Of a stretch of 24,652 nt of DNA, positions 1 through 18,186 are shown piece by piece. This stretch comes from a virus. Position 1 is the first letter of the stretch. Each line of letters begins with the position of its first letter. The notes beneath the pieces are model-generated. The model made no database searches. It was not told where the DNA came from and saw only the letters and a list, made by a program, of their open reading frames with translations. The stretch covers positions 1 to 24,652 of IMG/VR virus record IMGVR_UViG_3300045922_000208; one strand, written 5' to 3'. A program made the position numbers and the translations under genes.

Positions 1-339
1 TGTTAGATATGTATCAATAAGACCCTGTGCCCATACAACATCCGGTACAAACTCAACAACAGCACCCACCTCGTGTACCTGATCAGTTGTTCCTGCAAGC
101 CCTCGAGTTAGTCCGGTAACTGTTGATCCAGATGTGCCAGTATATGCTATCACCTCACGCTTTGTAGGAGGTAAGATAACGTTTCCGTTGCTGTCTATGC
201 GGTCAATAATAAACACTCCCGGTTTGTTTTGTATGCCAATTACATTATTGAATGCCGCAGAGGTTGTAATGCCAGCTCCTAGCTGGGCGCTTAAGCTTTT
301 TTGTAGAAAATCTTGAGTTGGTACATGATAAAGTGTCAT
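1..339 (-). CDS. Virion structural or tail appendage protein, N-terminal part
   Basis: An open frame begins with ATG at 339 and runs off the left edge after 113 codons, so the C-terminus is missing. The product starts MTLYHVPTQDFLQ. Around residues 70-113 it has a Gly/Thr-rich stretch (REVIAYTGTSGS, TRGLAGTTDQVHEVGAVVEF) of a kind I associate with phage tail or baseplate proteins. The last residues (VVWAQGLIDTYL) resemble a linker before a fibre or coiled region. The start is supported by a late-type promoter (TTGCAA-N18-TAAACT-N6-ATG), which predicts a leaderless mRNA. It is the last visible gene after the hub-like protein, where short-tailed phages often carry fibre or spike genes. The role is inferred from position and composition; no enzymatic motif is visible. 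Confidence 0.7.
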   Translation of the reverse strand, partial: MTLYHVPTQDFLQKSLSAQLGAGITTSAAFNNVIGIQNKPGVFIIDRIDSNGNVILPPTKREVIAYTGTSGSTVTGLTRGLAGTTDQVHEVGAVVEFVPDVVWAQGLIDTYLT

Positions 340-345
340 ACTTTG

Positions 346-375
346 AGTTTATGAGGAATATAAATAACTTTGCAA
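346..375 (-). promoter_or_regulatory. Late-type promoter for the gene starting at 339
   Basis: The -35 box TTGCAA is at 375-370, extended to TTGCAAAGTT. The -10 box TAAACT is at 351-346 with an 18-bp spacer, and the ATG follows after 6 nt. A 20-bp segment here (358-377) is identical to 18169-18188 at another promoter. Confidence 0.65.
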
Positions 376-377
376 TA

Positions 378-2309
378 TCATACTTGTTGGGATGATATAA
401 TAGACCCTTTTCCTTGTATCTTGCCATAAGTCAGAATGCCAAGTAGTTCAAAATTAGCTCCAACTGTCGATGTTTTTACTTCATACTGAATTGATTGACA
501 CTCTTTGAATAAATGTCCCCACCTGTAAATCTCATCTCCCCCTGGAGTGTAGGTACCTGATGTATCTCCCCATTTTTGAGTTCCCCATAAATCATATCCC
601 CATCCAGAGTTTCCTGCAAGTTGCGTACCCTCAATTGTAAATGTTTTTGCGTTCACGGTTCTTCCTTCTCTGTCTTCCAACAAAATATTTATTGTTGTTG
701 ACTCTTTCATGTTTCTTAATATCATGTGAAACATGCCTGCTATCTTTAGAGCATCAAATGATCCAAAAACCTCTTTATTTGTTCTGAAGTTTTTAATCAT
801 AACTTTTCCATCATCACTATTTTTTGATGGCTCAAAAACATACACTTGATTGTTTTCTGACGAGCCTAATATCCATCTTTCCGTTCCTGATGAGTCAACG
901 TGTTTTTTCATTTTACTGATACCAAACGGAAGCTTCCAGATACCAGCAAAGCATCCCCTTTCACGGTCGTAAACTAAAATCTCACGCCTTCCGGGAAAAG
1001 ATAAAAGATACTTATTGTTTACATACATAGCACACGCAGATTTATAATCATCATCAGAAAACTGTGCCAAATACGGACGCACTCGTGCAGATATTTCATT
1101 GGTTCTGATGACAGATAGAAAGTTTGGCTCATAGCCTGTCACGTATATCCCTTTTCTTCCGAAGTAGAATACATCGTTTTCAACTACTTGAATGGTATCT
1201 CCACTGGAGCAACCTATATCTGTGGAGATAGGTTGATAAACGGGGTCAAGTAGTAAATAAGGACCAAACATCGTTGTTGATAGTGTGACCTCATAATGAG
1301 AGTTTTCTTTATAAACAAGGATTTTATTTGATCCTGGCTGAATTTCAGCACCGACAATATCCTCTCCTGAGTCTGGATCTACATATAAATAACCACCTCC
1401 ATCCACCCATGAGAAGCTGTAATGCTTTGGATATCGTGCAGATATCAACAACTTTGTTCTGTCATTGGCATCTACTGCAATTAGCCTGTCATTTATTTTT
1501 TTAATAAATGGACTTTTTATGCCACCTGTAGAGTTGGTGAGAGGAGGTAACTGAGTTAATGATGCTGGATCTCCCATATCAAAGTATTGAGTGGTAGAAG
1601 GGCCAACAGCAGCTAAAAATGTCTCATCTCCCGGACGTCCTCGGTATATCTGATAGCCAGTAAACGTAGCAGCTGATATTCCTGTCCAGCTTAATCTGAT
1701 CGTTGTTTTCGATAGGTCTTGAGGAAGGTTGTTTAGCTGAACACGAACAGATGGCTGCGTTTCTCCACCGGTTACACTTGTTGCAGTTACGGTCCAAGAG
1801 TAAACATTAGTTCCAGATACTCCAGAAATGTTTGTAGCTTGTAATGCTGTTGGTGCAGAAAGAGTGGCAAATACCTGAATACTTGTTCCGTTATAAACAA
1901 CCATAGGCACATTTTCAGATACGATATATGTCTTTCCCCCTAGTTGCTCTGCATCTATTTGTGATCCGGAAGGGTAAGAAACGCCTGTAATCACACTATA
2001 TGAAAGACCTGATTTTTTTGCTAAGTATCCAGCATCAGATAGAGCGATTATCTCATTAGTTGCGTTTTTGACGTATGTTGCAAAGCCACGGATAGTCCCA
2101 TGTGAATTTGCTGTAAAATACTTTTCAGTTCCCCATCTACCGGTGGGGACTCCAGAGCCTATTAGCATAATGTTATCGCCTTGTACATACTCATCATTGT
2201 TTATTTCAGTAGGACGCAATAAAAGATTAAGACCTTTTCTAAACGTGTTCCATTCTGCCTTTACATTTCTACCTCCCTTGAAATTGGTGATTCTTCCTAT
2301 ATTGACCAT
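378..2309 (-). CDS. Tail hub/nozzle-like virion protein with a fibronectin-like insert
   Basis: This 643-residue protein has no signal peptide and no catalytic motif. The N-terminus (KAEWNTFRKGLNLLLRP, then EYVQGDNIM) and the middle (STDIGCSSGDTIQVVENDVF, then FGRKGIYV) match the style of podoviral hub, nozzle or DNA-stabilisation proteins. These are beta-propeller-like rings that extend the portal and adaptor. Residues of roughly 150-245 look like a fibronectin type III or related Ig-like domain (SAPTALQATNIS, IRLSWTG, YQIYRGRPG). The C-terminal part is again beta-rich. The gene begins one base after the adaptor stop (TGATATG), so it is probably translationally coupled to it. A virion structural role is likely. 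The assignment to hub or nozzle rests on local motifs and gene order and needs structure prediction. Confidence 0.7.
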   Translation of the reverse strand: MVNIGRITNFKGGRNVKAEWNTFRKGLNLLLRPTEINNDEYVQGDNIMLIGSGVPTGRWGTEKYFTANSHGTIRGFATYVKNATNEIIALSDAGYLAKKSGLSYSVITGVSYPSGSQIDAEQLGGKTYIVSENVPMVVYNGTSIQVFATLSAPTALQATNISGVSGTNVYSWTVTATSVTGGETQPSVRVQLNNLPQDLSKTTIRLSWTGISAATFTGYQIYRGRPGDETFLAAVGPSTTQYFDMGDPASLTQLPPLTNSTGGIKSPFIKKINDRLIAVDANDRTKLLISARYPKHYSFSWVDGGGYLYVDPDSGEDIVGAEIQPGSNKILVYKENSHYEVTLSTTMFGPYLLLDPVYQPISTDIGCSSGDTIQVVENDVFYFGRKGIYVTGYEPNFLSVIRTNEISARVRPYLAQFSDDDYKSACAMYVNNKYLLSFPGRREILVYDRERGCFAGIWKLPFGISKMKKHVDSSGTERWILGSSENNQVYVFEPSKNSDDGKVMIKNFRTNKEVFGSFDALKIAGMFHMILRNMKESTTINILLEDREGRTVNAKTFTIEGTQLAGNSGWGYDLWGTQKWGDTSGTYTPGGDEIYRWGHLFKECQSIQYEVKTSTVGANFELLGILTYGKIQGKGSIISSQQV

Positions 2310-2310
2310 A

Positions 2311-2952
2311 TCATTCTATAATGTAATTTGCAGCGCCTAACCTTTTAGCTCTTCCGGCTCCACCTGAAGGAGACTTCATTTGTTTTCCAATCATGTTTGA
2401 TAGAGCTTCTTTAGCTTCAGCTTGATACACGTTATAGCGCTCATCATTAAATGACAAAAGCATGTCTGCATTTAATTGGGCTACTACATATGTTGGATCC
2501 GATAACTCACAAATATCTGTTAGTGTCAATAGCCCTGTTGGGTAGCGCTGATAATCAAAAGATAGTGTAGCATTAGCAATTAAGTTGTTAAAAACTGCTG
2601 TGTATCCAGATGCTGGATTGCCAAGAATATAACAATACTTATCTGAAGCTGATTTTTTGTATCTCTCTAGTGGTCTTATAACCTCATATTCTTCCCATTC
2701 ACCGTTTGAACGTAAAACCATTGGAGATGCCATCAGTTCACGAAAGTTACTTGGAAGTGGAAAAGATGCGAAAGTGGAAGTTGACACCACATACACTTCG
2801 TGAAGCTCTGGAAATTGTGCAAGTGCTGATGCTCTCCAAACTGCTTGATTTGCAAATGATGAGCGTATTTCTAATGTGTTTCCTGTTGGGATATCAGTAA
2901 CCTTTTCTAGAAAAGCATTTGATGCTGATAGTATTTGCGAAAGTGTTTTCAT
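2311..2952 (-). CDS. Head-tail adaptor-like protein
   Basis: The product is 213 residues with the start at MKTLSQILSASNAF. An upstream in-frame ATG at 2979 exists, but a late-type promoter (TTGATA-N18-TATCCT) ends 7 nt before 2952 and overlaps the longer start, so I prefer 2952. The middle (PLPSNFRELMASPMVL, then NGEWEEYEVI) resembles the pattern of phage adaptor or connector proteins that bind under the portal (P22 gp4 and related families). The C-terminus is basic and glycine-rich (KSPSGGAGRAKRLG). The neighbours agree: it lies upstream of and coupled to the hub-like gene. Confidence is moderate because the family match is by eye. Confidence 0.6.
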   Translation of the reverse strand: MKTLSQILSASNAFLEKVTDIPTGNTLEIRSSFANQAVWRASALAQFPELHEVYVVSTSTFASFPLPSNFRELMASPMVLRSNGEWEEYEVIRPLERYKKSASDKYCYILGNPASGYTAVFNNLIANATLSFDYQRYPTGLLTLTDICELSDPTYVVAQLNADMLLSFNDERYNVYQAEAKEALSNMIGKQMKSPSGGAGRAKRLGAANYIIE

Positions 2953-2959
2953 ATCTTCT

Positions 2960-2989
2960 AGGATATGAAAGAAAGACATGACTTATCAA
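2960..2989 (-). promoter_or_regulatory. Late-type promoter for the adaptor operon
   Basis: TTGATA is at 2989-2984, continuing as TTGATAAGTC. TATCCT is at 2965-2960 with an 18-bp spacer. The ATG at 2952 follows after 7 nt. It restarts late transcription downstream of the glycosyltransferase cassette and decides the start of the adaptor gene. Confidence 0.6.
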
Positions 2990-3016
2990 GTTGTTTAAGA
3001 ATGGTGCTTATATATG

Positions 3017-3118
3017 TTATTTTTTTACGACATCTCCAACATCTTCAACATTGTCTGTAAGCAACTTATCAAGAGCTATTTGTGAGCGTGGAGAGTTATT
3101 GATGATTCGTTCAAAACC
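3017..3118 (-). other. Short open frame without a start codon, possible gene remnant
   Basis: In a frame different from the methyltransferase, and partly overlapping its 3' end, 33 codons are open from a TGA (3119-3121) to a TAA at 3017-3019. The translation looks protein-like and hydrophilic, ending LDKLLTDNVEDVGDVVKK. There is no ATG, GTG or upstream promoter. It may be the surviving 3' end of a gene displaced when the cassette was inserted, or chance. Confidence 0.2.
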
Positions 3119-3579
3119 TCATCTACATTAAATCCTGCTGCTACAACTTTATCATACAGAGTGTTTGCAGTAAAACCTGTTTTATGAATATCCCACTGAT
3201 CTTGTTGTCCGCCAAATATATAGCGGATAGCATCCTCATGATACCCTTCTATAATAAGACCCGCATGCCATTCTAGATTCGGAACGATTATCTCAACTTT
3301 ACCTTTCGGTTCAAGTAAGCTATGAATAATATCTAAAACTTCTTTTACCTGTTTATTTGTGAAATGTTCAAGAACATGAGATGCTCTAATAACAGAACAT
3401 TGTTCTTTATTTACATATAGTGGTAAATCAAGTATGTTACATACTAAATCTATGCCATCATAAGCTTCTATGTCATTTAAGACAAATCCCTTAGCCTGCA
3501 CTTCGTGACCTGTTGCAGGGTCTCCAGCCCCTATATCAAGCTTCATACCTTTTACATTCTTTTCAGGATTAACCCACAT
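3076..3579 (-). CDS. SAM-dependent methyltransferase (class I, small)
   Basis: This 167-residue product shows a class I Rossmann methyltransferase pattern. Motif I is KLDIGAGD (residues 13-20). An acidic strand region follows (DIEAYDGIDLVCNILDLP), then SHVLEHF at 67-73, and the hydrophobic strand EPKGKVEIIVPNLEW at about 90-104. This layout is typical of small predicted methyltransferases found beside glycosyltransferases in surface-glycan loci (COG4627-like or methyltransferase-11-like). It overlaps the preceding glycosyltransferase by 11 nt, so the two are co-translated. An internal start at MKLDIG (3546) is possible. The substrate is unknown; methylating a sugar made by the neighbouring enzymes is a reasonable inference. 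Confidence 0.75.
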   Translation of the reverse strand: MWVNPEKNVKGMKLDIGAGDPATGHEVQAKGFVLNDIEAYDGIDLVCNILDLPLYVNKEQCSVIRASHVLEHFTNKQVKEVLDIIHSLLEPKGKVEIIVPNLEWHAGLIIEGYHEDAIRYIFGGQQDQWDIHKTGFTANTLYDKVVAAGFNVDEVLNESSITLHAHK

Positions 3580-4975
3580 GAGATAAATCTAAACTTGCAT
3601 CAATATTTTCATCTCTTACAAGAGGTAGCTCCCCCTTTTCAGTTAAAGTGAAAAGTTTTTCATATCTGCTTTCATTATAAGCTTTAGCTTCCGGTAAGAA
3701 TGGCTCTTTATCTTTTAGCAAGCTTTGGTGATGTAAACATTCAGCAACATTTGTAATATCAAGTTGAATGACTGATCCAAGTTTAATTGCTCGCATTGCA
3801 ATATCTGTGTTATCAAAGCCCAGCCCATCATCTAATGCTTCCCACCAGCCATTTAATTCACGGACAAGAGATACAGGAATAGCGCCATAATTTTGTTCAA
3901 AATCAAAAGGGTTGACTGAATTATTAACCCTAGCTTTCATTCTGATATTACGATAGACAATCTCCCCTTTAATATCTGTTGATCCGCTAAACCAGTCTTC
4001 TTTTGTAAAGTCTGGTGCTTGTGTTGGCATAAAAGCAATATCTACCGGTGCAATTAAATCGTTGGGATGTCTTAGATAAATGTTGACAATTTTCTCCAGC
4101 CCATCAATAGGTGGAATAACAAAGTCTTGCAAAAATACTAATAATTCGCCGTTTGCCTCACGCATAGCTATATTATTGGCACGGACAAGTGAGTATTTTC
4201 TGCTATGTTTTTCGCCTCTAATATACCGTATATTAAGCTTGTATTTATTTGAATACTTATCTGCAAGATGTTTCCTATCTTCTGGAAAATCGTCAACTAT
4301 AATCCACTCAAAGTTTTTGTATGTTTGCTTAGATAATGCATGGGCCATTAAGTTCCACCAGCCACTTCTGATTGTTGGAGTGTACACAGTAAGTAGTGGT
4401 CTATCTTTTTCTGCTGTAAATGCTTTCGTCCATTGTTCAGATATTTTATCTATGGTATATTTTTCTGCATGTTTTTTTGCTTTCTTTCTTTCTTTTCTGA
4501 CTCGTTCAGGGTTATCCATTAAAGAAAAGAGTTCGATAAGATACGTTTGCATGCCTTCAGGTTTGCTTATATCAGCTGTTACCTTTACACCACTTTGAAC
4601 TGTTTCATCTAGTGCTGCAAGTGGTACAGTTACCGGAATAAGACCATCACGTTGAGCTTCTAGAGCAGATATACAATTTATCTCAGAAAATGTTGCAGGG
4701 TAGACCCAGAAAGTACATTCTTTTCTTAGTTTTTGTAAATCATCTTTACCTAGCCTTCCATGCTCTGTAATTCCCGGTTGTTTCATTAGTTCTATCATGT
4801 CTTGTTTCCATTTCATTCGCTCTGGATTATTAGAGTAAGCAATATCAAACAAATCCCACCCATAGCAAATATGAAGCTCTGCGTCTGGATAGTTATCTTT
4901 TATCATTTGCCAGTTGACGAGAAGATTAACTAAACCTCTGTCATAGCTTGATGTATAAATGAGTTTATGGTTCAT
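3569..4975 (-). CDS. Glycosyltransferase: C-terminal half of a GT-B enzyme fused to a GT-A domain
   Basis: Residues of about 1-187 match only the C-terminal, nucleotide-sugar-binding Rossmann domain of a GT4-type (GT-B) enzyme: KLIYTSSYDRGL at 4-15, DAELHICYGW, and the E-x7-E signature at E98/E106 (FSEINCISALEAQ). The N-terminal acceptor domain is absent. Residues of about 192-420 are a second, GT2-like GT-A domain: LTVYTPTIRSG, the acidic pair in WIIVDDF (D228/D229), ELLVFLQD (D284) and GFDNTDIAMRA. The missing acceptor half is at the end of the upstream gene, whose TGA overlaps this ATG (ATGA). The ORF is long and intact with good codon continuity. It probably modifies a glycan or virion protein; donor and acceptor are unknown. 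Confidence 0.8.
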   Translation of the reverse strand: MNHKLIYTSSYDRGLVNLLVNWQMIKDNYPDAELHICYGWDLFDIAYSNNPERMKWKQDMIELMKQPGITEHGRLGKDDLQKLRKECTFWVYPATFSEINCISALEAQRDGLIPVTVPLAALDETVQSGVKVTADISKPEGMQTYLIELFSLMDNPERVRKERKKAKKHAEKYTIDKISEQWTKAFTAEKDRPLLTVYTPTIRSGWWNLMAHALSKQTYKNFEWIIVDDFPEDRKHLADKYSNKYKLNIRYIRGEKHSRKYSLVRANNIAMREANGELLVFLQDFVIPPIDGLEKIVNIYLRHPNDLIAPVDIAFMPTQAPDFTKEDWFSGSTDIKGEIVYRNIRMKARVNNSVNPFDFEQNYGAIPVSLVRELNGWWEALDDGLGFDNTDIAMRAIKLGSVIQLDITNVAECLHHQSLLKDKEPFLPEAKAYNESRYEKLFTLTEKGELPLVRDENIDASLDLSHVG

Positions 4976-6723
4976 AAGATGCCATTTGAGATAATCATAA
5001 ACTTAGAATCTGATATGTATTTGGCAAGGTTTCTATGGTATTTTGACTTAACCATAAAAGCGTCAATTGCCTGTATATGAGACTTTTTTATATCAATAGG
5101 GTGATAGATATCATGTAGATCAACAAATATTTTCTTTGCTTTTATCTTATCTGTAAGATTCCAATTTCTCCATTGAATAAAGATGTTGAAATAATCAAAC
5201 GGATTAAAGTAAAAATACGGTAAATACCAAACTCCGTTCACCTCAATAGGCTTTTCCGGATCGCAATATACTGTTACCTTATACCCCTTTTTTACCCACT
5301 CTTCAGATAATTGAATAACAGCTGTCTCACTTCCTCCTATCCCCTTTTTCAATGATCTTCCATCCCACTTTTCAAAATGATGTCCACCCAAACTGGCATA
5401 ATAACAAATCTCATTATCTTTCCAAGTACGGGGATGTGTATACTTTTGACGCAGTTTGACACCAAATGGTTGCCCTGCTATTGCCATTGGAAGTGCATTT
5501 ATGATATCTGGAATATGTTCATCATCTCCAATATCATCCATATAGCGCACAAGTGTATCAACACTTCTGCATGCTTCATCTGCTCTGACAACACTTGTAA
5601 GAACATCTATTAATGCTTGATTTTCTTCTGTTGGTTTTTCTTTGAATAACATCTTAGCAGCCTCTAATGCTTTACTAGGATTTTTTTCTACATTGTAGAA
5701 ATACCGGTACATGATCTCAGCAAACATTATTTTTAGTCCTTCGTAATTATTTATTTTAGCTCCATTATTATCAAGATCCATCTGTGATGCGATATCAATC
5801 CAGTGTTTACACTTTTTATATTCTTTTAAGTTGTAGTACGCTGCAGCAAGACGGACATATAAAATTGGCTGGTGTGGCCATTCAGCAATTGCTTTGTGTA
5901 AAAGTGATACCGCTTCAGCAAACTCTCCGGCATGCCCCATACACTGTGCCATCAGCTCATATGCTTCTGCTCTTTCTTCGTTCCAGCCTGATTTTTTTAA
6001 GTAATCAAATCCCATTTTGATACACTCTTTCCATTGCTCTTTATCGTCCTGTTCTGCATAAATCTTCATAAGATACAACATCGTTCTTGGATCTGGATTA
6101 TCTCCCTCATCTTTAAGTTGCATCTTAAGTAGTCGCTTGTTTCGTTCCATCTTCTCAATAGCATTATCAGCGCTTGCTGTGTGAATAATGGCTATTGGTT
6201 GATCTTTGTTATAGGGAACAATTGTATATTTCATCTTAGCGCCAGCTACAGGGACAGGAGTTTCATGTAGTCTTCCTTTCCAAACATTTGTGCCAGGCCT
6301 GATTAACCGCTCTCTGTTGTGCTGAATATCTACTTTCACTAAACTATCTTCAGAAGGTTCTCCTTTGAATGTACATCCATACCAGTATTCAAAGAAGATA
6401 ACATCATAGTTTTGATTTTTAGCTTTTTCTGCAATTTTCAAAAGATACTCGCCCCCTACTAATAAGTCATCTGCATCCATCCAGAAAATATAGTCATACC
6501 CTTCAGGGACTTGTGAAAAGTTGAAGTTTCTAGCATCAGCAAATGAATCATTCCATTTGAAAGATGAGTGTTTTACTCCTTCTATTGTTTTTATCTTATC
6601 TACTGGAGTACTGGTAGATGTAATAAAAATGTCTTTTATGTAGGGCTTAATAGAGTTTATAGCTTTTACAAGGCTATTATATTCTGAATCATCTTTAACA
6701 ATTAGACAGGCAGCTACATTCAT
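4972..6723 (-). CDS. Glycosyltransferase: GT-A domain, TPR region, N-terminal half of a GT-B enzyme
   Basis: This 583-residue protein has three parts. Residues 1-200 are a GT2-like GT-A domain (AACLIVKDD, DSFADARNF, and a DxD in FWMDADD at D83/D85). Residues of about 205-400 are helical TPR-like repeats (AYELMAQCMGHAGEFAEAVS, YVRLAAAYYNLKEYKKC). Residues of about 436-583 are the N-terminal Rossmann half of a GT4-type enzyme (GIGGSETAVIQLSEEWVKKG, AFMVKSKYH, FMIISNGI). The protein stops three residues after ISNG, exactly where the hinge to the second Rossmann domain normally begins. That second domain starts the next cistron at once. The start overlaps the previous stop by 4 nt. The cassette seems dedicated to glycan synthesis or glycosylation. 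Confidence 0.8.
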   Translation of the reverse strand: MNVAACLIVKDDSEYNSLVKAINSIKPYIKDIFITSTSTPVDKIKTIEGVKHSSFKWNDSFADARNFNFSQVPEGYDYIFWMDADDLLVGGEYLLKIAEKAKNQNYDVIFFEYWYGCTFKGEPSEDSLVKVDIQHNRERLIRPGTNVWKGRLHETPVPVAGAKMKYTIVPYNKDQPIAIIHTASADNAIEKMERNKRLLKMQLKDEGDNPDPRTMLYLMKIYAEQDDKEQWKECIKMGFDYLKKSGWNEERAEAYELMAQCMGHAGEFAEAVSLLHKAIAEWPHQPILYVRLAAAYYNLKEYKKCKHWIDIASQMDLDNNGAKINNYEGLKIMFAEIMYRYFYNVEKNPSKALEAAKMLFKEKPTEENQALIDVLTSVVRADEACRSVDTLVRYMDDIGDDEHIPDIINALPMAIAGQPFGVKLRQKYTHPRTWKDNEICYYASLGGHHFEKWDGRSLKKGIGGSETAVIQLSEEWVKKGYKVTVYCDPEKPIEVNGVWYLPYFYFNPFDYFNIFIQWRNWNLTDKIKAKKIFVDLHDIYHPIDIKKSHIQAIDAFMVKSKYHRNLAKYISDSKFMIISNGIL

Positions 6724-7094
6724 ATTTTATAGTTAGTGCTTTTGAATAATGCTTGTCTTTTGACAAGTTTTGAATAAAAATTTCGATCACTGAGCGACAT
6801 ATATGGAAAAAATATTTTAAGAAGTTTGAAAAGTCTGGTAGGGTATGTAACAGGATTGTACAGATGAACATGTTTATCTCTTTCATTTTCCAGATCTATT
6901 TTTCTATCATGTCTCCAATCATTTACTTCTTGCGGGTAGTTAGCTTCCCAGAATAAAACAATTGCATCAATCAGTTTCCATCCGGCTTCTGTTGAGCAAT
7001 CTTGAGGATTGCCTAACTTATCAGCATATGCGTCTAAAGCCATTATCGATTCATATTGTGACTTAGGAATAAAAACTGTTTCGTATTCATCCAT
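6720..7094 (-). CDS. Unknown protein, first gene of the glycosyltransferase cassette
   Basis: I do not recognise this 124-residue protein. The N-terminal part is acidic and helical (MDEYETVFIPKSQYESIMAL). A tryptophan-rich middle (AGWKLIDAIVLFWEANY) leads to a basic, aromatic C-terminus (TRLFKLLKIFFPYMS) that might contact a membrane or a partner. No catalytic motif stands out. The ATG follows an extended -10 promoter (TGTTATAAT) after 5 nt, and the stop overlaps the start of the first glycosyltransferase gene. It is therefore probably part of the same function. Confidence 0.7.
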   Translation of the reverse strand: MDEYETVFIPKSQYESIMALDAYADKLGNPQDCSTEAGWKLIDAIVLFWEANYPQEVNDWRHDRKIDLENERDKHVHLYNPVTYPTRLFKLLKIFFPYMSLSDRNFYSKLVKRQALFKSTNYKI

Positions 7095-7099
7095 ACCAC

Positions 7100-7108
7100 A
7101 TTATAACA
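7100..7108 (-). promoter_or_regulatory. Extended -10 promoter of the glycosyltransferase cassette
   Basis: The minus strand reads TGTTATAAT, a match to the extended -10 form TGnTATAAT, ending 5 nt before the ATG at 7094. No TTGNWAAGTY -35 box is present, unlike the structural-gene promoters. It lies just downstream of the capsid terminator. Confidence 0.55.
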
Positions 7109-7111
7109 AAT

Positions 7112-7152: not shown

Positions 7153-7161
7153 TAACCTGCG

Positions 7162-8076: not shown

Positions 8077-8094
8077 ATTAATATACAAATCTTA

Positions 8095-8853
8095 TTAATA
8101 TCCTGAAAGCTTGAGTCGTTCTTCTATAGTAAGAGGTCTATTCTGAAAAGAATTTTGTTTATTATGTGAATAGCTTCTTACTGTTTGATCTAGGACTCTC
8201 TTTTCAGGTTTTGGTGCAGCCTTATTTTGAGAATAAACTTGCGAAAAGAATTGCTCTGCTTTTTTTGCAGCTGCCATTACGTCTTTTGTTCCTTTTGCCA
8301 TTTGACCTAAAAGATCATTCCGTACAAAGTCATAGAAATTAGGATCAAATTCTGGTGAGTACGGATCAAGTTGAGGATATTTAGCATGCACTTTATCCAT
8401 CACTGACTGCTGTTCAAAAGTTGCAATTTTAGCTTCTGCTTTTTTGGCACGCTCTAAAGCTTCTTGCACTTTTCGATTGTTTTCCTCAAGTATTTGCTGC
8501 AACCTTATTTCGTCTAGATATCCATCCTGATCAATTAAGGCTTGCGCTGTTGCCTGTACTTGATCGTTTGATAGATTACTAAACTGAGGTGCATACGTCT
8601 CAACTGCATCCTCTAAGACTGAAGAATGAACAGGCTTTTCTTTGCTTTCAGTTTTTTCTTTAAGCTGTTGAGCTAGAATCCTGTTTCTTTCTTTGAGCTT
8701 TTCAAATTGCTGTCTGGTTCTTTCCGATACCCCGTCGGGTAAGGTTAGTTCCTCTTCAGCAACTTGTTCTTCAGTGGTTTGGTCTGATGTGAGCATTGCA
8801 TCTACCTGTTTCTCCTCAGGTATAGTGTTTTCTTGCTCGTTCTGTTTATCCAT
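8095..8853 (-). CDS. Capsid scaffolding protein
   Basis: This 252-residue protein is strongly acidic at the N-terminus (EEQVAEEELTLPDG). It has a long charged coiled coil in the middle (residues of about 45-155, including RQQFEKLKERNRILAQQLKE and EALERAKKAEAKIATFEQQ) and a basic, polar C-terminus (RPLTIEERLKLSGY). That composition, with its position immediately before the capsid gene and after the portal, is the usual signature of a scaffold that guides procapsid assembly and leaves before packaging. No protease motif is visible. The mRNA seems to have an unusually long structured leader (8854-8927). Confidence 0.8.
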   Translation of the reverse strand: MDKQNEQENTIPEEKQVDAMLTSDQTTEEQVAEEELTLPDGVSERTRQQFEKLKERNRILAQQLKEKTESKEKPVHSSVLEDAVETYAPQFSNLSNDQVQATAQALIDQDGYLDEIRLQQILEENNRKVQEALERAKKAEAKIATFEQQSVMDKVHAKYPQLDPYSPEFDPNFYDFVRNDLLGQMAKGTKDVMAAAKKAEQFFSQVYSQNKAAPKPEKRVLDQTVRSYSHNKQNSFQNRPLTIEERLKLSGY

Positions 8854-8927
8854 AATGTAAAGTTCGTAGTGTGATTAAATAATTGCTCTTTATTTTTATA
8901 CTCCTGAGCATAGGGAGTTACACTACA
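8854..8927 (-). promoter_or_regulatory. Structured 5' leader of the scaffold-capsid transcript
   Basis: The predicted start of transcription is near 8927. The RNA can form an outer 7-bp stem, GTAGTGT (8926-8920) with ACACTAC (8872-8866), and an inner 5-bp stem, ACTCC (8918-8914) with GGAGT (8904-8900). The outer stem begins within two bases of the predicted 5' end. A tiny ATG-TAG frame lies at the start of the leader. Most other transcripts here appear to lack a leader. Confidence 0.4.
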
Positions 8928-8933
8928 TTAAGT

Positions 8934-8963
8934 AGCATATATACAATCGTAATAACTTTTCAA
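8934..8963 (-). promoter_or_regulatory. Late-type promoter for scaffold and capsid
   Basis: TTGAAA (8963-8958, extended TTGAAAAGTT) and TATGCT (8939-8934) are separated by 18 bp. Unlike the related promoters, the start codon is about 75 nt downstream instead of 6. Confidence 0.5.
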
Positions 8964-9172
8964 GAGGTATTTTTTTTTGTTAAGTATTCATAAAGTAAAT
9001 GGAGATTTGGACCAGTCCATGCAGCTCCACTTGGAGAACGAAGCTCTCCATTATGAAAGTAAACTCCAGAATGATCATTCTTTTTATTAGGATCAAGTGT
9101 AACTGAGTACATTTCTCCGTCGAATGCATCATTACTTAATGGAGGTAGCTTTTTCGATTGTTTGGAGGGCAT
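8960..9172 (-). CDS. Small unknown phage protein
   Basis: This 70-residue protein begins MPSKQSKKLPPLSNDAFDGE. It is polar, with two aromatic-rich beta-like segments (HSGVYFHNGELRSPSG, AWTGPNLHLLYEYL). I do not recognise it. It overlaps the end of the preceding gene by 41 nt in another frame, and its own 3' end overlaps the -35 box of the scaffold promoter. A small head-decoration or completion role is possible from position only. Both the overlap and the size leave some doubt that it is expressed. Confidence 0.5.
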   Translation of the reverse strand: MPSKQSKKLPPLSNDAFDGEMYSVTLDPNKKNDHSGVYFHNGELRSPSGAAWTGPNLHLLYEYLTKKNTS

Positions 9173-9476: not shown

Positions 9477-9482
9477 ATGTTT

Positions 9483-11501
9483 TTATATAATTTGAGCTTG
9501 TGGCATCTGTTGATCCATTCCAATTTCTTTACCTATCATCTCTTCATTTCCCATCATTTGATCTTCTGATGAAATTTGAGCCTGCAGCTCTGCTGGTAGT
9601 TGTAGTGGTTGAGTTTGTTCATGATTTTGATTTAATGGCTTGGCATCAGTAAAAAATCTTTCTGCATCTTTTAATCCGATATCTTCGAATATTGCAGACA
9701 GCAATGTATAGATATCTGTCTGCTTACCTGATTGCATAAGCATGTTCTGAACCTGAGGCATCATTATCATCTCAAATGCTTTCATCCGTGCGTTGGCAAG
9801 CTCTTCTTCAGCCCCACTTTGCATAGATCTAATTGACGGAACGTAATCATACAGACCATCAAGATCCTCAGGAACTATAATAATTTCGGCAGCATCTCCC
9901 ATTTCATTTAATCTCATTTTTGGCTTCCATGATAGTTTTTCAGGATTTCTTTCGTCTGGATTGTCAAATACTGGATATTTTGGAATTGATCCTGCCTCTA
10001 TCATCATTTCAATATCTTCATCTTTTACGTTTCCACCCTGCATATTGATAATATCTGATATCACTTCTGCAGATTGATCAGGAAGTTCCATTTCATGTAG
10101 GCCTGCTTTTTTGAAATATTCAAAGTTTTCTTTACCGATAATACGGAGTAGGTACTCGTGCTGTTTTTCATCTCTAAATAAAAACTGCTTATTGTTTGAA
10201 ACCCACATCATCATCATATCAGTTATACAATCAGAAAGTGCTTGTTGATTTTTTTGATCTCTCATATTTTGTTGATAGGCTGTTCTTTTTATTTCTGTTG
10301 CTGTTTTTTTAGAACTCGTAGGATCAATTGAACTTACCCCCTGAGAGATGTCTCCCATTGCAACATTGAATGCAGAGACAAGTGCTGCATAGGTTGCTTG
10401 AAAGTTTCTGACCGCTTCGCCATTTGATTGATGCTCTGTTACTGCGTCAACTCTGTCTACTAGCCACTGAGCCTCTGGAGCAAAGACAATTGTTTCTATG
10501 CGGGCTGCTCCGTCAAGAATCTTAAGAGGCGGACGCATATGAATATTGATATTGTCTATGAATCCACATACAACAAACTGAATGGCTCTCCATAATGGAA
10601 GCACAGGCTCTACCTCTGATTCTCCCAGCGGATCACCCTGCAGAGAGTAATATTTGAGTTGAACAACTGGTATTTTTTTATGAATATAGGGATTGGGAAT
10701 ATCACGGATACATACCCCAAACTTTGGTGCAAATGTAATCCATCTATCAACCCTATACTCTGTAACAATCTCAATTACCGGAAAAGAATCATCTTCACCA
10801 ACACGATCAGGCAAACCTTTCAGTGTAAGCAATCGATTAGTATATGCACTATCTCTCCTGTTTTGAGATTGTTTCATTTTTTCTTTTAAGATATCTAAAT
10901 TCTTGTACTTAGCTAGACCAACATAAGCATCATTAGTTTTTTCTAAATCCTCATATTTTACCCATGAGCGATGTTGAAACCATTTAGCATTTTTAATATT
11001 ATCTGCTGTTGGATCTATCCCACAGTCTCTAATATCAAGAGGTTGAAACTCATTACCATTAAATAAGACATTCCCCTCATCATCTTCTTCATAGCGCCAC
11101 TTAACTAGTGCGAACTTTGAGCCATACAGTCTAGTGTCCTGATCCATTGTTGAATACTTTTCCAACATAGAACCACCATCTTGAGCAGCGTCCCATTGAT
11201 AGTCTAAAAGAGCATTGTTAATACGAGCTTTAATAACGTCTGTTCCCTCACGTGGTACAAGCCTACCCCTTAGCTTTGAGTTTAATAAACGTGAAGTTTT
11301 TTCTATAATTGATGTTCTAATACGAGGATCGACAACACGAGCAAGGTATGGCCAATCATCCGGAAGTTTACCCCAATAGGCATCAGTAATATCATTCCAT
11401 CCGTTTTTTCTTGTTAAGCGGTGTTCCATATCTTGAGTCCAAGTTTTGTAGTGTTTTTGGACTTCTGTAAATATATTTGAACTATAATCATTTTTTGCCA
11501 T
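9483..11501 (-). CDS. Portal protein
   Basis: This 672-residue protein has the length and layout of podovirus/SU10-type portals. The N-terminal wing includes WNDITDAYWGKLPDDWPY, then DPRIRTSIIEKTSRLLNSKL. The central stem/clip region contains VPVVQLKYYSLQGDPLGESE, followed by PLWRAIQFVVCGFIDNINI. The segment VSSIDPTSSKKTATEIKRTA precedes a long C-terminal helix and a Gln/Met-rich tail. Portals form the dodecameric ring through which terminase pumps DNA and to which the adaptor binds. It has its own late-type promoter (TTGCAA-N18-TAAGCT-N6-ATG) and is followed by assembly genes and scaffold, the usual order. No truncation is seen. Confidence 0.85.
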   Translation of the reverse strand: MAKNDYSSNIFTEVQKHYKTWTQDMEHRLTRKNGWNDITDAYWGKLPDDWPYLARVVDPRIRTSIIEKTSRLLNSKLRGRLVPREGTDVIKARINNALLDYQWDAAQDGGSMLEKYSTMDQDTRLYGSKFALVKWRYEEDDEGNVLFNGNEFQPLDIRDCGIDPTADNIKNAKWFQHRSWVKYEDLEKTNDAYVGLAKYKNLDILKEKMKQSQNRRDSAYTNRLLTLKGLPDRVGEDDSFPVIEIVTEYRVDRWITFAPKFGVCIRDIPNPYIHKKIPVVQLKYYSLQGDPLGESEVEPVLPLWRAIQFVVCGFIDNINIHMRPPLKILDGAARIETIVFAPEAQWLVDRVDAVTEHQSNGEAVRNFQATYAALVSAFNVAMGDISQGVSSIDPTSSKKTATEIKRTAYQQNMRDQKNQQALSDCITDMMMMWVSNNKQFLFRDEKQHEYLLRIIGKENFEYFKKAGLHEMELPDQSAEVISDIINMQGGNVKDEDIEMMIEAGSIPKYPVFDNPDERNPEKLSWKPKMRLNEMGDAAEIIIVPEDLDGLYDYVPSIRSMQSGAEEELANARMKAFEMIMMPQVQNMLMQSGKQTDIYTLLSAIFEDIGLKDAERFFTDAKPLNQNHEQTQPLQLPAELQAQISSEDQMMGNEEMIGKEIGMDQQMPQAQII

Positions 11502-11507
11502 GATTCT

Positions 11508-11537
11508 AGCTTATGTAAAAGGTAATCAACTTTGCAA
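11508..11537 (-). promoter_or_regulatory. Late-type promoter for the portal gene
   Basis: TTGCAA (11537-11532, extended TTGCAAAGTT) and TAAGCT (11513-11508) are spaced by 18 bp. The portal ATG at 11501 follows after 6 nt, which predicts a leaderless mRNA. Confidence 0.65.
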
Positions 11538-11538
11538 G

Positions 11539-11820
11539 CTATAGCTTAATGTCAAATATATTAAGTCTACAAATGCGAATTAAACGCGCTAAGCTTTTAA
11601 TGTTGTGATCTAAAACTTTTTTTTGGCAGATATGACATATGCGAATATACTCATTTTCACCTATCTGAAATAAATAGGGATCTATCTCATATGGTATTTC
11701 ACTAGCACATGCCTGACAAGTCCAAGGCTTATTATATAATCTTTTTTCTGTACCAGTTACAGTTCGCCCCCACTTCGTGAAAGTGTGCTTAATGGTGCAA
11801 ATAGTAGTGTGCTTGCTCAC
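11539..11820 (-). CDS. Small zinc-ribbon-like protein
   Basis: This 93-residue protein is read from GTG at 11820. Two cysteine pairs, CQAC (C35/C38) and CHIC (C62/C65), are 23 residues apart and would suit a single four-cysteine zinc site. The N-terminus is basic (KHTFTKWGRTVTGTEKR) and the C-terminus is basic and hydrophobic (LARLIRICRLNIF). This could bind nucleic acid or another virion protein; HNH-type catalytic residues are not evident. A promoter-like TTGACG-N18-TATACT lies 8 nt before the start. It is a single gene between the large internal protein and the portal, and its function is unknown. Confidence 0.6.
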   Translation of the reverse strand: MSKHTTICTIKHTFTKWGRTVTGTEKRLYNKPWTCQACASEIPYEIDPYLFQIGENEYIRICHICQKKVLDHNIKSLARLIRICRLNIFDIKL

Positions 11821-11828
11821 TATCTATA

Positions 11829-11858
11829 AGTATATAACTAGCTGTCAAAATACGTCAA
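11829..11858 (-). promoter_or_regulatory. Promoter for the zinc-ribbon-like gene
   Basis: TTGACG (11858-11853) and TATACT (11834-11829) are spaced by 18 bp. The GTG start follows after 8 nt. The -35 box overlaps the stop codon of the preceding gene, and the AGTY extension of the other promoters is absent. Confidence 0.4.
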
Positions 11859-14800
11859 GCAAACGATGGCCTTCTAATTCTTAATCTTTTTACTTTTATC
11901 CGCTTAGAAGTAAAACGTCTTTTTGATCTGAGTCTTTTTGATCTGACCTTCCTTAATCTAATTCTTCTCGATTTTCTGAAAAATGATTCTGGAATGCTAC
12001 CACCTAGTTTATTCTTCAATTCTTGTTGTTGAGCCTGCAGGATTTCGATCTGCTTTAATCCTTCCTCTTGTGGTATTTCTTTTCGTTTTATTCCGCCTTT
12101 GATATCGTTGATATCAAACTCTATTGCCTTGATTCTTTTTGCGATTGCTAATTCTTGCTCTTCTTTTGTTTTTCTTTCTCCTCCTAAGAATCTTCTTAAA
12201 ACAGGTATTTGATTTATTGTTGCTCCTTGTTCATTTTGTGGTGTTTTATATTTATCTGGAATGAAAGGCCGTGTCATTCTTTCACCTATATTTGCCAATC
12301 CCGTTCCGTATCCATGAACTAACGCCTCAATTTTTGCAGGCGATGCGTTTATTTTATCGCCTATCATTCTATATAATGGTCGAGTGTATGCGGTATCTTG
12401 ATATTTTGCAGGATATGCTTTTTTGTATTCGGGGACTATCTCTTTATCAAAGAAAAAGTTTTTGTTTACTGCTACCTCTATTATTGGACGAAGAGCAGTT
12501 GGGAATATATCACCTACATTACTAACTGGTGAAAATGCTTTTAAGACATCTACTAACGCATTCTTTACATCTCCTCCTTTATTATCCGCCATCCTTAAAA
12601 ACTCTTCAGTAGGATTTGCCAATTGACCAATGTCGCCTTTTGGTATTGCTATATACTGCGCTCCACCCAACTGCGGTATTGGAGTATCAGATAGCATAAA
12701 TATAAATTTCCTTTTTTTGTCTGTCTCTGATACCACTCGTTCATCATTGTATGATTCAAACTGTCTATTCCAGGCATACAACACTAATGCCGGGACTTGT
12801 GAAATCAATCCAACTCTAAACCCTACACCCACAGGATCGTTTTTGAAACTTCGCAATAAGCGATCAACACCCTGCAATCTTGCGTTAAGGAACGCATAAA
12901 GAGCATTTATCGCTTGTGTTTTTGAACCATGTCTAGAAAAGTTTGTAGTTGCTTCTTGCGCCCAGTAAGCAGCCTCTTTAAGTGCTTCCTCACGTGATAA
13001 TCCTTTTTTAAGACCTTCGTTAAGTATCTCTTCAAAAACAGCTATTCTTGTAGGTGTGTCAGAATACTCTGAAATTGTTTGTAACACCTTCAAAAGACCG
13101 CTCGGTTTTAATACCTCAATTGCCTTTGATTTTGTATCTCCAGCTATCTCTGCCACAGTTTTCTGCAGCATTGGTCTATCTATTGCAACTCTTGTAGTAC
13201 TTTTCGCTCCTTGTTTCAGAAACTCTTGATATATCTCATCTTTTTTCATCATATGAGCAAGTCCTTTAACCCACTTAAGAGGATTAAGACCAACATTGAC
13301 AAAAGCCGATTGGAGATCTATCAATACATTAGGAACAAAAAAATCTGGGTTTGATCCTGTTGCAGAGGCTCTAAACACTGCTGTTGGATATTGGAGTATT
13401 TTAAATATTGTAGCTAATGCTTCTTTATTTAACCCTTTTGCAGCCTCTGCCACCTCAATAGGGACTTGATAATGTTTTACTTTGCCATTGACAAAAAGTG
13501 AGATATTTGGCGTGTTTCCAACTTTACCTTTTATTTCTTTTATCATTCCCTCCGGTAGATCATCTTTAAGAGATACAATAGTTTGTGCTACCTCTTGTCT
13601 TTTAGCCAATGCAACCATTTTGTATGTTGCTTCTAAAATTGATTCGATAGGATCAACTATTTCTTTATCACTTCCTTTTATGCTATAGATAACATCCTGA
13701 CTACTAACTGATCCTGCTCCTTTGCTTGGTGGAACAAAGCCTAAAAACTCATCCACCCGATCCATTACCCGCTTGAAAGGAATATAAAAATTATTATTTT
13801 TTCGCATGTTTTTGTATCCTATTTGACTCATTATTCCGGTATCAACAAGATACGTTTTGACCATTCTGTCTTGGTATTCGTATAGTTTTTTAAGAGTTTC
13901 ACCTATTGATTTCATCTTTTCCTCACCCAATCTTTCTTTTATTGCCTTTAACTTTTCTAATGCTTGTTTTTGCTTAGGTGATCCTTTTATGCCACGACTA
14001 GCTAACTCAATGTCTCTCATTGCAATGGCCGCCTCTCTTAAATCATTTAGATTTTGTTCTTTAAGAATTTGAGTCAACTCAAAATCAACATGGTATTGTG
14101 CGGTTGAACCTGCCCCATAATAACCTGCTAATGCATGTCTCATCTCCTTTGCCTTGCCAGCCATTTTAGCTACATAATTAAGTGGATGAAATTCATTTAC
14201 AGTTTCTGTATAGAGCTTATTGAATTTTGCTTTTAATTTTGAGATAAAGCCATCTACTGATGAATCACCTTCTTGTGCTGGAGGCTTTGTTGGTGGAGAT
14301 CCTTCCCCTATTTTTTTTGGTGGCTTTTGTGGTGGCACACCCTCTCCTGATCCTTTTGGTGGTTTTTGTAGTTGTATTCCTTCTGGCTCTGTCGGTTTCT
14401 GTTGAGATAAGTCGATAGATTTCTGATCTGAAAAGGTTGTTGGTGGCTGTGATGGTACTATTGGCTGCTTTTTGATAATTGGATACTTAGAAAACTTGAT
14501 ATTTTGATCTCCCTGCATAGCACTTCTTATTCCAGTTTTACCAACAGCAGCTCCAAGTGTAAAATCAATTAACGCATCCTGGACAGTATACTTTGCATCA
14601 GGTATCACTGCCTTTTGCATTACTACTCCTTCTGGAATATTTAATGTGCCGACAGCTGCTCTTTCTGCTAAGAAGTTAATGAAATCCCGTTTTTTCCCTG
14701 CTGGTACTTTGCTTAACGCATTCAGCACTGTCTTGCTCTTCATTAATTTTTCGCTAATCTTATCTATCATTGGATTAGTTAGCATTCCTATTGCCTTGTA

Positions 14801-15385
14801 CGCACCTGCAGAGGAAATACCCTCACCTACACCTTTAGCAAATCTATATGGATCATTTTTATCTCCGAAAACTTGATTTATTCCACCACTTAAACCACCT
14901 AGAGCTAATGTTTGCAAAGGGTTTGCAACTGCTAGCGGAGAGGCTGCCAGCTTCCCACCAGAAAAGAGCATTCTTTTATACGGATCAACAAAGTTTTTTT
15001 TAGGGTCAACTGTGCTTTGAAGTGTTTCTGCAGTTGCTGATGTAAAATCTTTTGCAGTATTGAGAAATGGTTTTGTAATAGAACCTAGTATATTGCTTTT
15101 TGGTATTTGTTGTACTATTGGATCTATCGTTTTTCTTGCCTGATTAGCCACTTGCTGGTATGCATTTGACGTGTCTTTCCATGCCTGAGATGCGGCTTTT
15201 TGCACAACGGGGACAATGGGCTTTAAGCTTTCTGCTGTTTGTCCGGTAAACCCTACATACCCTCCAGGACGAATATCAGCAACAAAATCATTTTTAGCTT
15301 GAATTATAGGCTTAATGAATGTCTTGTACCCTTTATCAAATGTTTCACGGGCTTTATTTATGGTGTCTTGGAAAAAATTTGCCAT
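11855..15385 (-). CDS. Very large internal virion protein candidate with LPD38-like region and basic tail
   Basis: This 1176-residue protein starts MANFFQDTINKARETFDKGY. Residues 1-310 are Ala/Gly-rich with amphipathic helices (PLQTLALGGLSGGINQVFGD). A low-complexity Pro/Lys linker follows at about 315-375, with three variants of QKPPKGSGEG. Residues of about 380-1000 are mainly helical and resemble the large polyvalent protein-associated regions (LPD38-like) of injected phage proteins: NPDFFVPNVLIDLQSAFVNV, then EEALKEAAYWAQEATTNFSR, then LYAFLNARLQGVDRLLRSF. The last 40 residues are about half Arg/Lys (RKVRSKRLRSKRR). The position among internal-protein genes and a late promoter fit a protein packaged with and perhaps ejected with the DNA. 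The LPD38 assignment is by eye. Confidence 0.65.
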   Translation of the reverse strand: MANFFQDTINKARETFDKGYKTFIKPIIQAKNDFVADIRPGGYVGFTGQTAESLKPIVPVVQKAASQAWKDTSNAYQQVANQARKTIDPIVQQIPKSNILGSITKPFLNTAKDFTSATAETLQSTVDPKKNFVDPYKRMLFSGGKLAASPLAVANPLQTLALGGLSGGINQVFGDKNDPYRFAKGVGEGISSAGAYKAIGMLTNPMIDKISEKLMKSKTVLNALSKVPAGKKRDFINFLAERAAVGTLNIPEGVVMQKAVIPDAKYTVQDALIDFTLGAAVGKTGIRSAMQGDQNIKFSKYPIIKKQPIVPSQPPTTFSDQKSIDLSQQKPTEPEGIQLQKPPKGSGEGVPPQKPPKKIGEGSPPTKPPAQEGDSSVDGFISKLKAKFNKLYTETVNEFHPLNYVAKMAGKAKEMRHALAGYYGAGSTAQYHVDFELTQILKEQNLNDLREAAIAMRDIELASRGIKGSPKQKQALEKLKAIKERLGEEKMKSIGETLKKLYEYQDRMVKTYLVDTGIMSQIGYKNMRKNNNFYIPFKRVMDRVDEFLGFVPPSKGAGSVSSQDVIYSIKGSDKEIVDPIESILEATYKMVALAKRQEVAQTIVSLKDDLPEGMIKEIKGKVGNTPNISLFVNGKVKHYQVPIEVAEAAKGLNKEALATIFKILQYPTAVFRASATGSNPDFFVPNVLIDLQSAFVNVGLNPLKWVKGLAHMMKKDEIYQEFLKQGAKSTTRVAIDRPMLQKTVAEIAGDTKSKAIEVLKPSGLLKVLQTISEYSDTPTRIAVFEEILNEGLKKGLSREEALKEAAYWAQEATTNFSRHGSKTQAINALYAFLNARLQGVDRLLRSFKNDPVGVGFRVGLISQVPALVLYAWNRQFESYNDERVVSETDKKRKFIFMLSDTPIPQLGGAQYIAIPKGDIGQLANPTEEFLRMADNKGGDVKNALVDVLKAFSPVSNVGDIFPTALRPIIEVAVNKNFFFDKEIVPEYKKAYPAKYQDTAYTRPLYRMIGDKINASPAKIEALVHGYGTGLANIGERMTRPFIPDKYKTPQNEQGATINQIPVLRRFLGGERKTKEEQELAIAKRIKAIEFDINDIKGGIKRKEIPQEEGLKQIEILQAQQQELKNKLGGSIPESFFRKSRRIRLRKVRSKRLRSKRRFTSKRIKVKRLRIRRPSFA

Positions 15386-15391
15386 AAGCCA

Positions 15392-15421
15392 ATAGTAAAA
15401 AGACTTTCTTCAACTTATCAA
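15392..15421 (-). promoter_or_regulatory. Late-type promoter for the 1176-residue protein gene
   Basis: TTGATA (15421-15416, extended TTGATAAGTT) and TACTAT (15397-15392) are spaced by 18 bp, with the ATG 6 nt later. Confidence 0.6.
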
Positions 15422-16788: not shown

Positions 16789-16791
16789 ACG

Positions 16792-18150
16792 TTAAAATAG
16801 TCCGAATAACTTAGAATCTTTTTTAGGAGCCGGTTTCTCTTTATACTCGTTCCCGAATGAGTCATATTGTGTATAGCCAGCTGTTCCATCATCATAGACT
16901 GTACGACCCAGCTCATCTTTACCAACTACGTACTTGCCTATCTTGCCAATGTAAACTGGTTCTTGTGCTGTGAATGTTGTATTACCAATCTTATACTGCT
17001 GTCCAGGCTCATATGTGTCATAGAAAGAGTTACTCATGTCTCTGGCTTTTTTCTCATACCCAAGCTGAATCTCTAACTTCTTAGCATACATATCAAGCTC
17101 AGTTGCAGCATCATTACGTTGTTTTTCCAGCATGCGCAAGAAATTTGTGTTTTCTTGGTCAATTTGAAATATTTTATTGCGTAGGTCCATCAATGCTTGC
17201 AATCTCTGTTGTGCTTTATTTGCCCCTACCTCTGACTTCATTCTGGTAATCTCAAGAAGTTTATTCTGAAACTCACGATTTGCTTCATTGATGGCGGTTG
17301 CCCGTCTTGCATCTAACATTTCAAGTGCTGCTGCATAGTCTTGTTCAATTTGCCTTTTAGATCGCTCAATCTCTTGCATGTAGTTATTATATGTCTGCTG
17401 AACAGCTCCAAGATCCTGCGCCTGACTACGGGCAAGAAGCTCACTTGCCGCTTGACCTGCTGAACTTCCCATGCCAAAGCGCTGAAACGCTGCACGATTC
17501 TGCTCATCATATGCCTGACGATTCTTCATCTCTGCATCTGCTCGACGCTGCTCTGCTGTTGCTATATTGCCAGTAAGCTCACTTTCTGCACGTTTTTTGT
17601 TTGAATCAATGGTGCCACGTTGAGCCCTAAATTGTGCCTCTACATCTGCAAGAACGTTCGGGTAATCTCGACGCAAATTTTTTTCTGCCTCATTAAGATA
17701 GCTAAGCTGTTCATTGGCAGATCTGTCAATCTGTTCATAGATATCATCATTCCCCCGCGAACGCACATAGTTGATGTAGTCGTCATAGTTTGTAAATTGG
17801 TTGCCATCAGACACCCATACCCCTTGATTTCCCCCACTTTGTGGCGGTGGTGTTGGTGTTGGATTGCTTGTCGGGGGTGGCTTTGGATTTGTTTCCCTTG
17901 ATGCAGGCCCTGTATTTGTCCCCAAAACATTATTTTTGATGGGATACTGAACAGAGGATAATGGATAGGTTACCCCGTTGCTGAATGTGACAGTCTTGTT
18001 TGCATTTGTTTGAATTGGCTTTGCGGTTGAAGATAATACTGGTCCTGTTGTGCCAGGTTTAAGGTATGGATTTCCCCCTTTGGATGGTGGCTGATACGGA
18101 GTTGGCACCGGTATTGGAGATTGTGGTTTTTTGTCGTTTTGTGTAGCCAT
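16792..18150 (-). CDS. Coiled-coil internal virion protein candidate
   Basis: This 452-residue protein has three zones. A Pro/Gly/Thr-rich, disordered N-terminus spans about 1-110 (PIPVPTPYQPPSKGGNPYLK). A long coiled coil spans about 125-375 and is rich in Ala, Gln, Arg and Glu (EQLSYLNEAEKNLRRDYPNV, then EANREFQNKLLEITRMKSEV). A short beta-rich C-terminal domain follows (IGNTTFTAQEPVYIGKIGKY, then DELGRTVYDDGTAGYTQYDS). There is no membrane segment or enzyme motif. It lies between the large terminase and the M23 peptidase and is probably co-transcribed with the latter. With its neighbours it suggests a set of internal or ejected proteins, similar in position but not visibly in sequence to podoviral core proteins. 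Confidence 0.65.
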   Translation of the reverse strand: MATQNDKKPQSPIPVPTPYQPPSKGGNPYLKPGTTGPVLSSTAKPIQTNANKTVTFSNGVTYPLSSVQYPIKNNVLGTNTGPASRETNPKPPPTSNPTPTPPPQSGGNQGVWVSDGNQFTNYDDYINYVRSRGNDDIYEQIDRSANEQLSYLNEAEKNLRRDYPNVLADVEAQFRAQRGTIDSNKKRAESELTGNIATAEQRRADAEMKNRQAYDEQNRAAFQRFGMGSSAGQAASELLARSQAQDLGAVQQTYNNYMQEIERSKRQIEQDYAAALEMLDARRATAINEANREFQNKLLEITRMKSEVGANKAQQRLQALMDLRNKIFQIDQENTNFLRMLEKQRNDAATELDMYAKKLEIQLGYEKKARDMSNSFYDTYEPGQQYKIGNTTFTAQEPVYIGKIGKYVVGKDELGRTVYDDGTAGYTQYDSFGNEYKEKPAPKKDSKLFGLF

Positions 18151-18156
18151 ATTTGA

Positions 18157-18186
18157 ATGTTAGATAAGATATAAATAACTTTGCAA
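18157..18186 (-). promoter_or_regulatory. Late-type promoter for the coiled-coil and peptidase genes
   Basis: TTGCAA (18186-18181, extended TTGCAAAGTT) and TAACAT (18162-18157) are spaced by 18 bp, with the ATG at 18150 after 6 nt. The segment 18169-18188 is identical to 358-377. Confidence 0.65.

Follow-up and report, generated by a model that had tools for sequence, protein, structure and literature searches.

How does a phage known only from metagenomic sequence direct transcription to its structural genes, and what would read the signal that these genes share? Here we examine IMGVR_UViG_3300045922_000208, a 24.65-kb IMG/VR contig taken over its full length of 24,652 nucleotides (the window); like it, all motif-bearing records described below are metagenomic contigs. 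A first-pass annotation had proposed that six minus-strand promoters share an extended -35 element, TTGNWAAGTY, placed 18 bp from a TANNNT -10 hexamer, and that they form a coordinated late regulon. From comparative analysis we conclude that the six sites are probably late promoters for a host sigma70-type polymerase assisted by a phage factor that would read the 10-bp box. The sites, and one promoter of another type for contrast, are listed below, with orthologous positions in a close relative (G001).

346..375, minus strand: predicted late promoter, TTGCAAAGTT-N14-TAAACT; ATG at 339, 6 nt after the -10; ortholog at G001:26678.
2960..2989, minus strand: predicted late promoter, TTGATAAGTC-N14-TATCCT; ATG at 2952 of an SU10-adaptor-like gene, 7 nt after the -10; ortholog at G001:24063.
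8934..8963, minus strand: predicted late promoter, TTGAAAAGTT-N14-TATGCT; the one copy with a leader, serving the scaffold (ATG 8853) and major capsid genes; ortholog at G001:15126.
11508..11537, minus strand: predicted late promoter, TTGCAAAGTT-N14-TAAGCT; portal gene with ATG at 11501, 6 nt after the -10.
15392..15421, minus strand: predicted late promoter, TTGATAAGTT-N14-TACTAT; ATG at 15385 of a 1176-aa LPD38 protein, 6 nt after the -10; ortholog at G001:7988.
18157..18186, minus strand: predicted late promoter, TTGCAAAGTT-N14-TAACAT; ATG at 18150 of a 452-aa protein, 6 nt after the -10; ortholog at G001:5316.
20231..20259, plus strand: early-type promoter, TTGACA (20231-20236), 17 bp, TATAAT (20254-20259), with a 28-nt A-rich leader and without the extension.

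The pattern TTGNWAAGTY-N14-TANNNT occurs exactly six times in the window, always on the minus strand, with -35 boxes at 375, 2989, 8963, 11537, 15421 and 18186, which confirms the positions and the 18-bp spacing first proposed. Dinucleotide shuffles of the window contained 0.06 matches on average and never six. Because the pattern had been read off the six sites themselves, a blind statistic was added, namely the maximum number of sites with a common 3-mer after TTGNNN, at any spacer of 16-19 bp and on either strand. The window scored 6, and 300 shuffles reached at most 5, and 5 only twice; when all fetched loci were scanned in this way, the window and contigs L031 and L120 ranked first, each at 18 bp. 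The AGTY bases are indeed missing from the insertion sequence (IS) region and from the rightward TTGACA promoter. An early-type promoter resembling TTGACA-TATAAT also precedes gene 606-938 of G001, and several early genes of that contig (1002-2949, minus strand) have near-identical A-rich leaders (cacatttattaaaacatttaaaaacatATGAACA) after a repeated terminator-like sequence. Promoters of the Bacteroidetes type (TTTG / TAnnTTTG) were considered and rejected, the -10 being TANNNT without TTTG.

Comparison with relatives strongly supports the view that the structural genes form one coordinated regulon whose -35 carries a dedicated extension. Contig L031 (G001; 30.5 kb), found by an alignment-based search, encodes a capsid protein 81% identical to that of the window and carries seven sites, all on the late strand. 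Six of them are orthologous to those of the window, and the seventh precedes a gene block that has no counterpart there. Identity across orthologous sites is 95% in the 10-bp element and 81% in the -10 hexamer, but 44% in the diverged spacer and 36% in the 30 bp upstream. The window had no nucleotide relatives among 50,697 phage records, and single-protein searches of viral contigs with the large terminase, the 1176-aa protein and the major capsid protein returned none either; only alignment-based searches succeeded. The terminase was rejected as a query for the family search, as it is not orthologous between the window (18197-19636, minus strand) and G001 (4110-5297), the two being 24% identical. 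Since the other structural proteins are about 50-81% identical, a swap of the terminase module has taken place.

A portal-based search yielded 59 loci, and the pooled family analysis comprised 60 sequences (0.87 Mb). At this scale the coordinated regulon stands, and AGTY proves to be one dialect of a wider family: about 25 further uncultured relatives have the same architecture with lineage-specific extensions (TTGNWAACCY, also ACCA and AGGY). L120 (G002), whose capsid protein is 52% identical, has no AGTY site and six TTGNWAACCT-N14-TANNNT sites. The layout is present in most loci whose portals reach about 49% identity or more; the extension there is ACCT, ACCC, ACCA, AGTT or AGGT, and the ATG follows the start of the box by 35-38 bp. 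On the late strand of the pooled family, AACCY was counted 25 times at 18 bp and 11 times at 19 bp, and AAGTY 16 and 0 times; on the other strand the respective counts were 2 and 0, and 2 and 1, and single-strand shuffles gave 2.45. Motif sites are limited to the late strand and to the structural half, with none in the non-structural part of the longer contigs G004, G005 and G008, and the box of the portal promoter was found in 12 of the 12 phages compared.

The dialect is near-uniform within a genome (TTGATAACCTC nine times in G008, TTGCAAACCCC eight times in G019, TTGNWAACCT seven times in G003). One clade uses 19 bp almost throughout, and every listed site of G004, G005 and G008 has this spacing. 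Since one factor would act on all sites together, its target would be expected to drift in step throughout a lineage; the parallel change of many sites and the clade-wide change of spacing fit one trans-acting reader. A pattern-first scan of viral contigs gave mostly chance matches, together with multi-site contigs, several of them members of the same phage family. Two of seven motif-retrieved contigs (L386 and L398) belong to the family through a 643-aa protein; searches of the seven, most of them short fragments, with profiles of the portal and of the zinc protein described below found nothing. Scans for further phages of the AGTY dialect returned G001, the near-identical contig L409 and single chance sites, and complete spring-water phages with capsid proteins about 30% identical had no motif.

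The position of the sites relative to the start codons suggests how the messages begin. At five of the six window sites the -10 hexamer ends 6-7 nt before the ATG; polymerase of the sigma70 type would be expected to start at the ATG, and the mRNAs of these five should therefore be leaderless. Family-wide, about 38 of 52 sites have their ATG 5-8 nt behind the -10 (11-14 bp from the first T), and for 27 of the 52 the distance is exactly 6 nt, or 12 bp from the first T. In leaderless TANNNT signals of bacteria the first T stands about 12 bp from the start (PMC3160421). The remaining window site, 8963, has a nearby ATG that runs into a stop at once; the actual gene start is at 8853, after a leader of about 80 nt, and the scaffold gene is followed by the capsid gene. 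This leaderless design and the structured leader of the capsid operon had been missed in the first-pass annotation, and one gene start changes: the promoter at 2989 stands, but the nominal ATG at 2979 lies inside the motif, and the position of the -10 places the predicted start of the adaptor gene at 2952.

As the distance from box to ATG is fixed, at about 36 bp for most sites, one could also regard the element as a translation, recombination or packaging signal rather than a promoter. At the capsid-operon sites, however, the ATG is about 90-170 nt away and the 18/19-bp spacing from box to TANNNT is still kept, which ties the box to the -10 and not to translation or the start codon. Moreover, the spacer is not conserved, and we hold such a signal to be highly improbable.

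In the mechanism that we propose, host sigma70 polymerase would be recruited with the help of a phage factor bound to the upstream box (TTGNWAAGTY in the window, TTGNWAACCY in relatives), at a MotA-like position as in the middle promoters of phage T4. With a weak -10 (TANNNT) and a long spacer, the sites should be used poorly by polymerase alone until the factor is made, and expression would presumably be late. The start point would be the ATG itself or a position within about 1 base of it, so that the mRNAs of portal, adaptor, internal and tail genes would have no leader; at the scaffold/capsid operon the same kind of promoter would start about 80 nt upstream of the ATG and produce a pseudoknotted leader.

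A box that begins exactly at -35, at a fixed spacing, would also suit a phage sigma factor whose region 4 is altered to read it and whose region 2, resembling that of sigma70, reads the -10. Weak region-4-like helix-turn-helix matches do occur in some contigs, for example in a 79-aa early protein of G008, but no such candidate is common to the family, although a divergent sigma could be missed in incomplete contigs. Furthermore, the region-4 models PF04545 and PF08281 gave no match above cut-off in the motif-bearing records, incomplete as these contigs are, and the only match above it was in G021, which lacks the motif. We consider a phage sigma factor unlikely. For the phage factor that we favour, one gene stands out.

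11539..11820, minus strand: gene for a Cys4 zinc-finger protein of 93 aa, immediately before the portal gene; its product, a candidate for reading the extended -35, was studied with a hidden Markov model (HMM) and AlphaFold2.

This protein is encoded in all 12 phages compared in detail, and according to its HMM the 25 contigs that have it contain 34 late-strand sites (1.06 per 10 kb), as against 3 in the 32 contigs that do not (0.06 per 10 kb). These three correspond to one site in contigs L202-204, whose portals are identical; there another open reading frame replaces the zinc gene, and no other site is left. L232, placed beside the motif-free clade as its sister in the portal tree, has both the zinc protein and the motif. 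In most phages the zinc gene directly follows the terminase gene without a box; the copies in the window and G001 each have a sigma70-like -10 of their own near a GTG start. AlphaFold2 predicts a treble-clef-like core at residues 30-80, with a predicted local distance difference test score (pLDDT) of about 90 or more. By association, we tentatively put the zinc protein forward as the possible reader of the box.

The same distribution bears on whether the host could supply the reader. The dialects follow lineages that possibly differ in host, and could mirror these hosts if a host alternative sigma or a host regulator read the box. Yet the sites track a phage gene and are lost where that gene is replaced, and the phage early genes of this lineage use plain TTGACA-TATAAT promoters, which makes a host reader very doubtful.

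A closer competitor accepts that the promoters depend on a factor but assigns the reading to another gene, the zinc protein being an inactive HNH-like packaging or assembly protein. HNH-like proteins often adjoin terminase genes, and in most relatives the zinc gene has the terminase on one side and the portal on the other. Structure searches with the zinc protein gave no significant match, and its fold weakly resembles the treble clefs of eL24, GATA and HNH zinc proteins. On the other side, invariant or almost invariant columns among 25 sequences are limited to W, C, Q, K, G and R, without a conserved histidine such as the catalytic one in the beta-beta-alpha metal site of HNH packaging endonucleases; the presence of the protein also tracks the promoter sites. 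A Pfam scan of the 25 members gave no Ogr/Delta match among the families listed. We judge such a division of roles to be quite possible, if somewhat short of an even chance.

Several observations weigh against a single phage factor, and against the zinc protein in that role. G009 mixes extensions (ACCC and AGGC) within one genome. Protein and sites may occur together through common ancestry and linkage, as the gene adjoins the portal promoter, and the likeness to HNH-type treble clefs may mean that the protein serves in packaging. Finally, all long records are unfinished contigs, and the reader could be encoded elsewhere in the genome.

The one leadered message of the window contains a further element.

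8884..8918, minus strand: leader pseudoknot, with stem ACTCC/GGAGT and a loop TGCTC that can pair with a downstream GAGCA (H-type).

The covarying pseudoknot is found again in the scaffold (or capsid) leaders of about 20 lineages (for example at L031:9157, L120:7096, L121:6732 and L227:19488), some of them distant and devoid of the promoter box, and it often lies next to a Shine-Dalgarno sequence; in G002 a loop TGCCC faces GGGCA. Pairing was counted by script, MAFFT having slid the stem arms. A full 4-bp stem is present in 21 of 25 leaders though the stem sequences vary, compared with a mean of 9.7 and a maximum of 17 for re-dealt 3' flanks. No Rfam match was found for the leader pseudoknot. 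It could act in capsid translation or mRNA stability, and is possibly a new regulatory RNA of the capsid operon. The scaffold leaders of G004 (11587-11754) and G008 (11940-12102) have no pseudoknot and carry another covarying hairpin in the same place (GAGTC ATTGCA GACTC and GAGGC GTTGTA GCCTC, respectively).

As for the remaining gene content, the window encodes an SU10 major capsid protein (PF17236, E 1.4e-48, above the Pfam cut-off), weaker matches to the SU10 portal and adaptor, a large terminase, the 1176-aa LPD38-domain protein and an M23 peptidase. The 452-aa protein that starts at 18150 has relatives in 10 of the 12 phages. Directly upstream of the scaffold/capsid region is a gene for a 70-aa protein (8960-9172, minus strand) kept in 11 of the 12 relatives, often with Cys pairs. 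Between the capsid and adaptor genes lie two large glycosyltransferase genes (3569-6723, minus strand), kept in all 12 relatives and often accompanied by a methyltransferase; the kept pair suggests glycosylated virions. A palindrome, cgtcgtaaat-cacgta-atttacgacg (19656-19681, minus strand), stands immediately before a -10 of the leaderless type that precedes the terminase gene, and looks like an operator. In G008 the large terminase gene (1291-3687) has an intein-like insert within the Walker A motif (GNRVGK-C...N-T). An IS200/IS605-type element at 22355-23813 has TnpA and TnpB divergently arranged; its TnpB was tried as a host marker and rejected, as its matches are scattered over archaeal and bacterial metagenome-assembled genomes (MAGs; best 58%, a Methanohalobium MAG) and identify no host.

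Taken as a whole, the system may be one in which a small zinc protein of the phage, not described before, steers host polymerase towards an extended -35 to produce leaderless structural mRNAs, with box and spacing co-evolving with the protein and a new, conserved pseudoknot controlling capsid synthesis, a combination that we regard as speculative though worth entertaining. If it holds, an uncultured phage family would offer many natural promoter-factor pairs for the general question of how the specificity of a transcription factor shifts jointly with that of its numerous target promoters, with the dialects AGTY, ACCT, ACCC, ACCA and AGGY at 18 or 19 bp. The virus would run its structural-gene programme mainly on leaderless mRNAs and reserve a structured leader for scaffold and capsid, and gene starts in such phages would be corrected accordingly.

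Some of these features have counterparts in known systems. With SU10-type short-tailed phages the window shares a major capsid protein above the Pfam cut-off, with weak adaptor and portal matches, but no cultured relative was found for its portal. P2 Ogr and P4 Delta are zinc-finger activators of late genes, and Ogr sites lie near -55. The candidate activator proposed here is likewise a small Cys4 zinc protein, but its cysteines are spaced differently (CX2C-X23-CX2C) and the extension that it would read follows the -35 directly. T4 middle promoters (MotA/AsiA) similarly combine a sigma70-type -10 with a phage box some 10 bp long that overlaps the -35 region. The MotA box is located 12 +/- 1 bp upstream of the -10 and centred at -30 (PMC2988021), whereas the box described here is 14-15 bp from the -10, always begins with TTG like a -35, precedes structural genes, and is coupled to a weak -10 and leaderless starts; the MotA box sequence (WWWTGCTTtA) is also unlike it. 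No MotA or AsiA was named in Pfam scans of window and G001 genes, most records being fragments and no search having been aimed at these proteins. Lastly, the leaderless TANNNT-led genes of bacteria (Actinobacteria, Deinococcus-Thermus) likewise have TANNNT about 12 bp before the start and lack a Shine-Dalgarno sequence (PMC3160421, PMC12340547); what differs here is that the design serves a set of phage structural genes and that its -10 is coupled to a lineage-specific upstream box.

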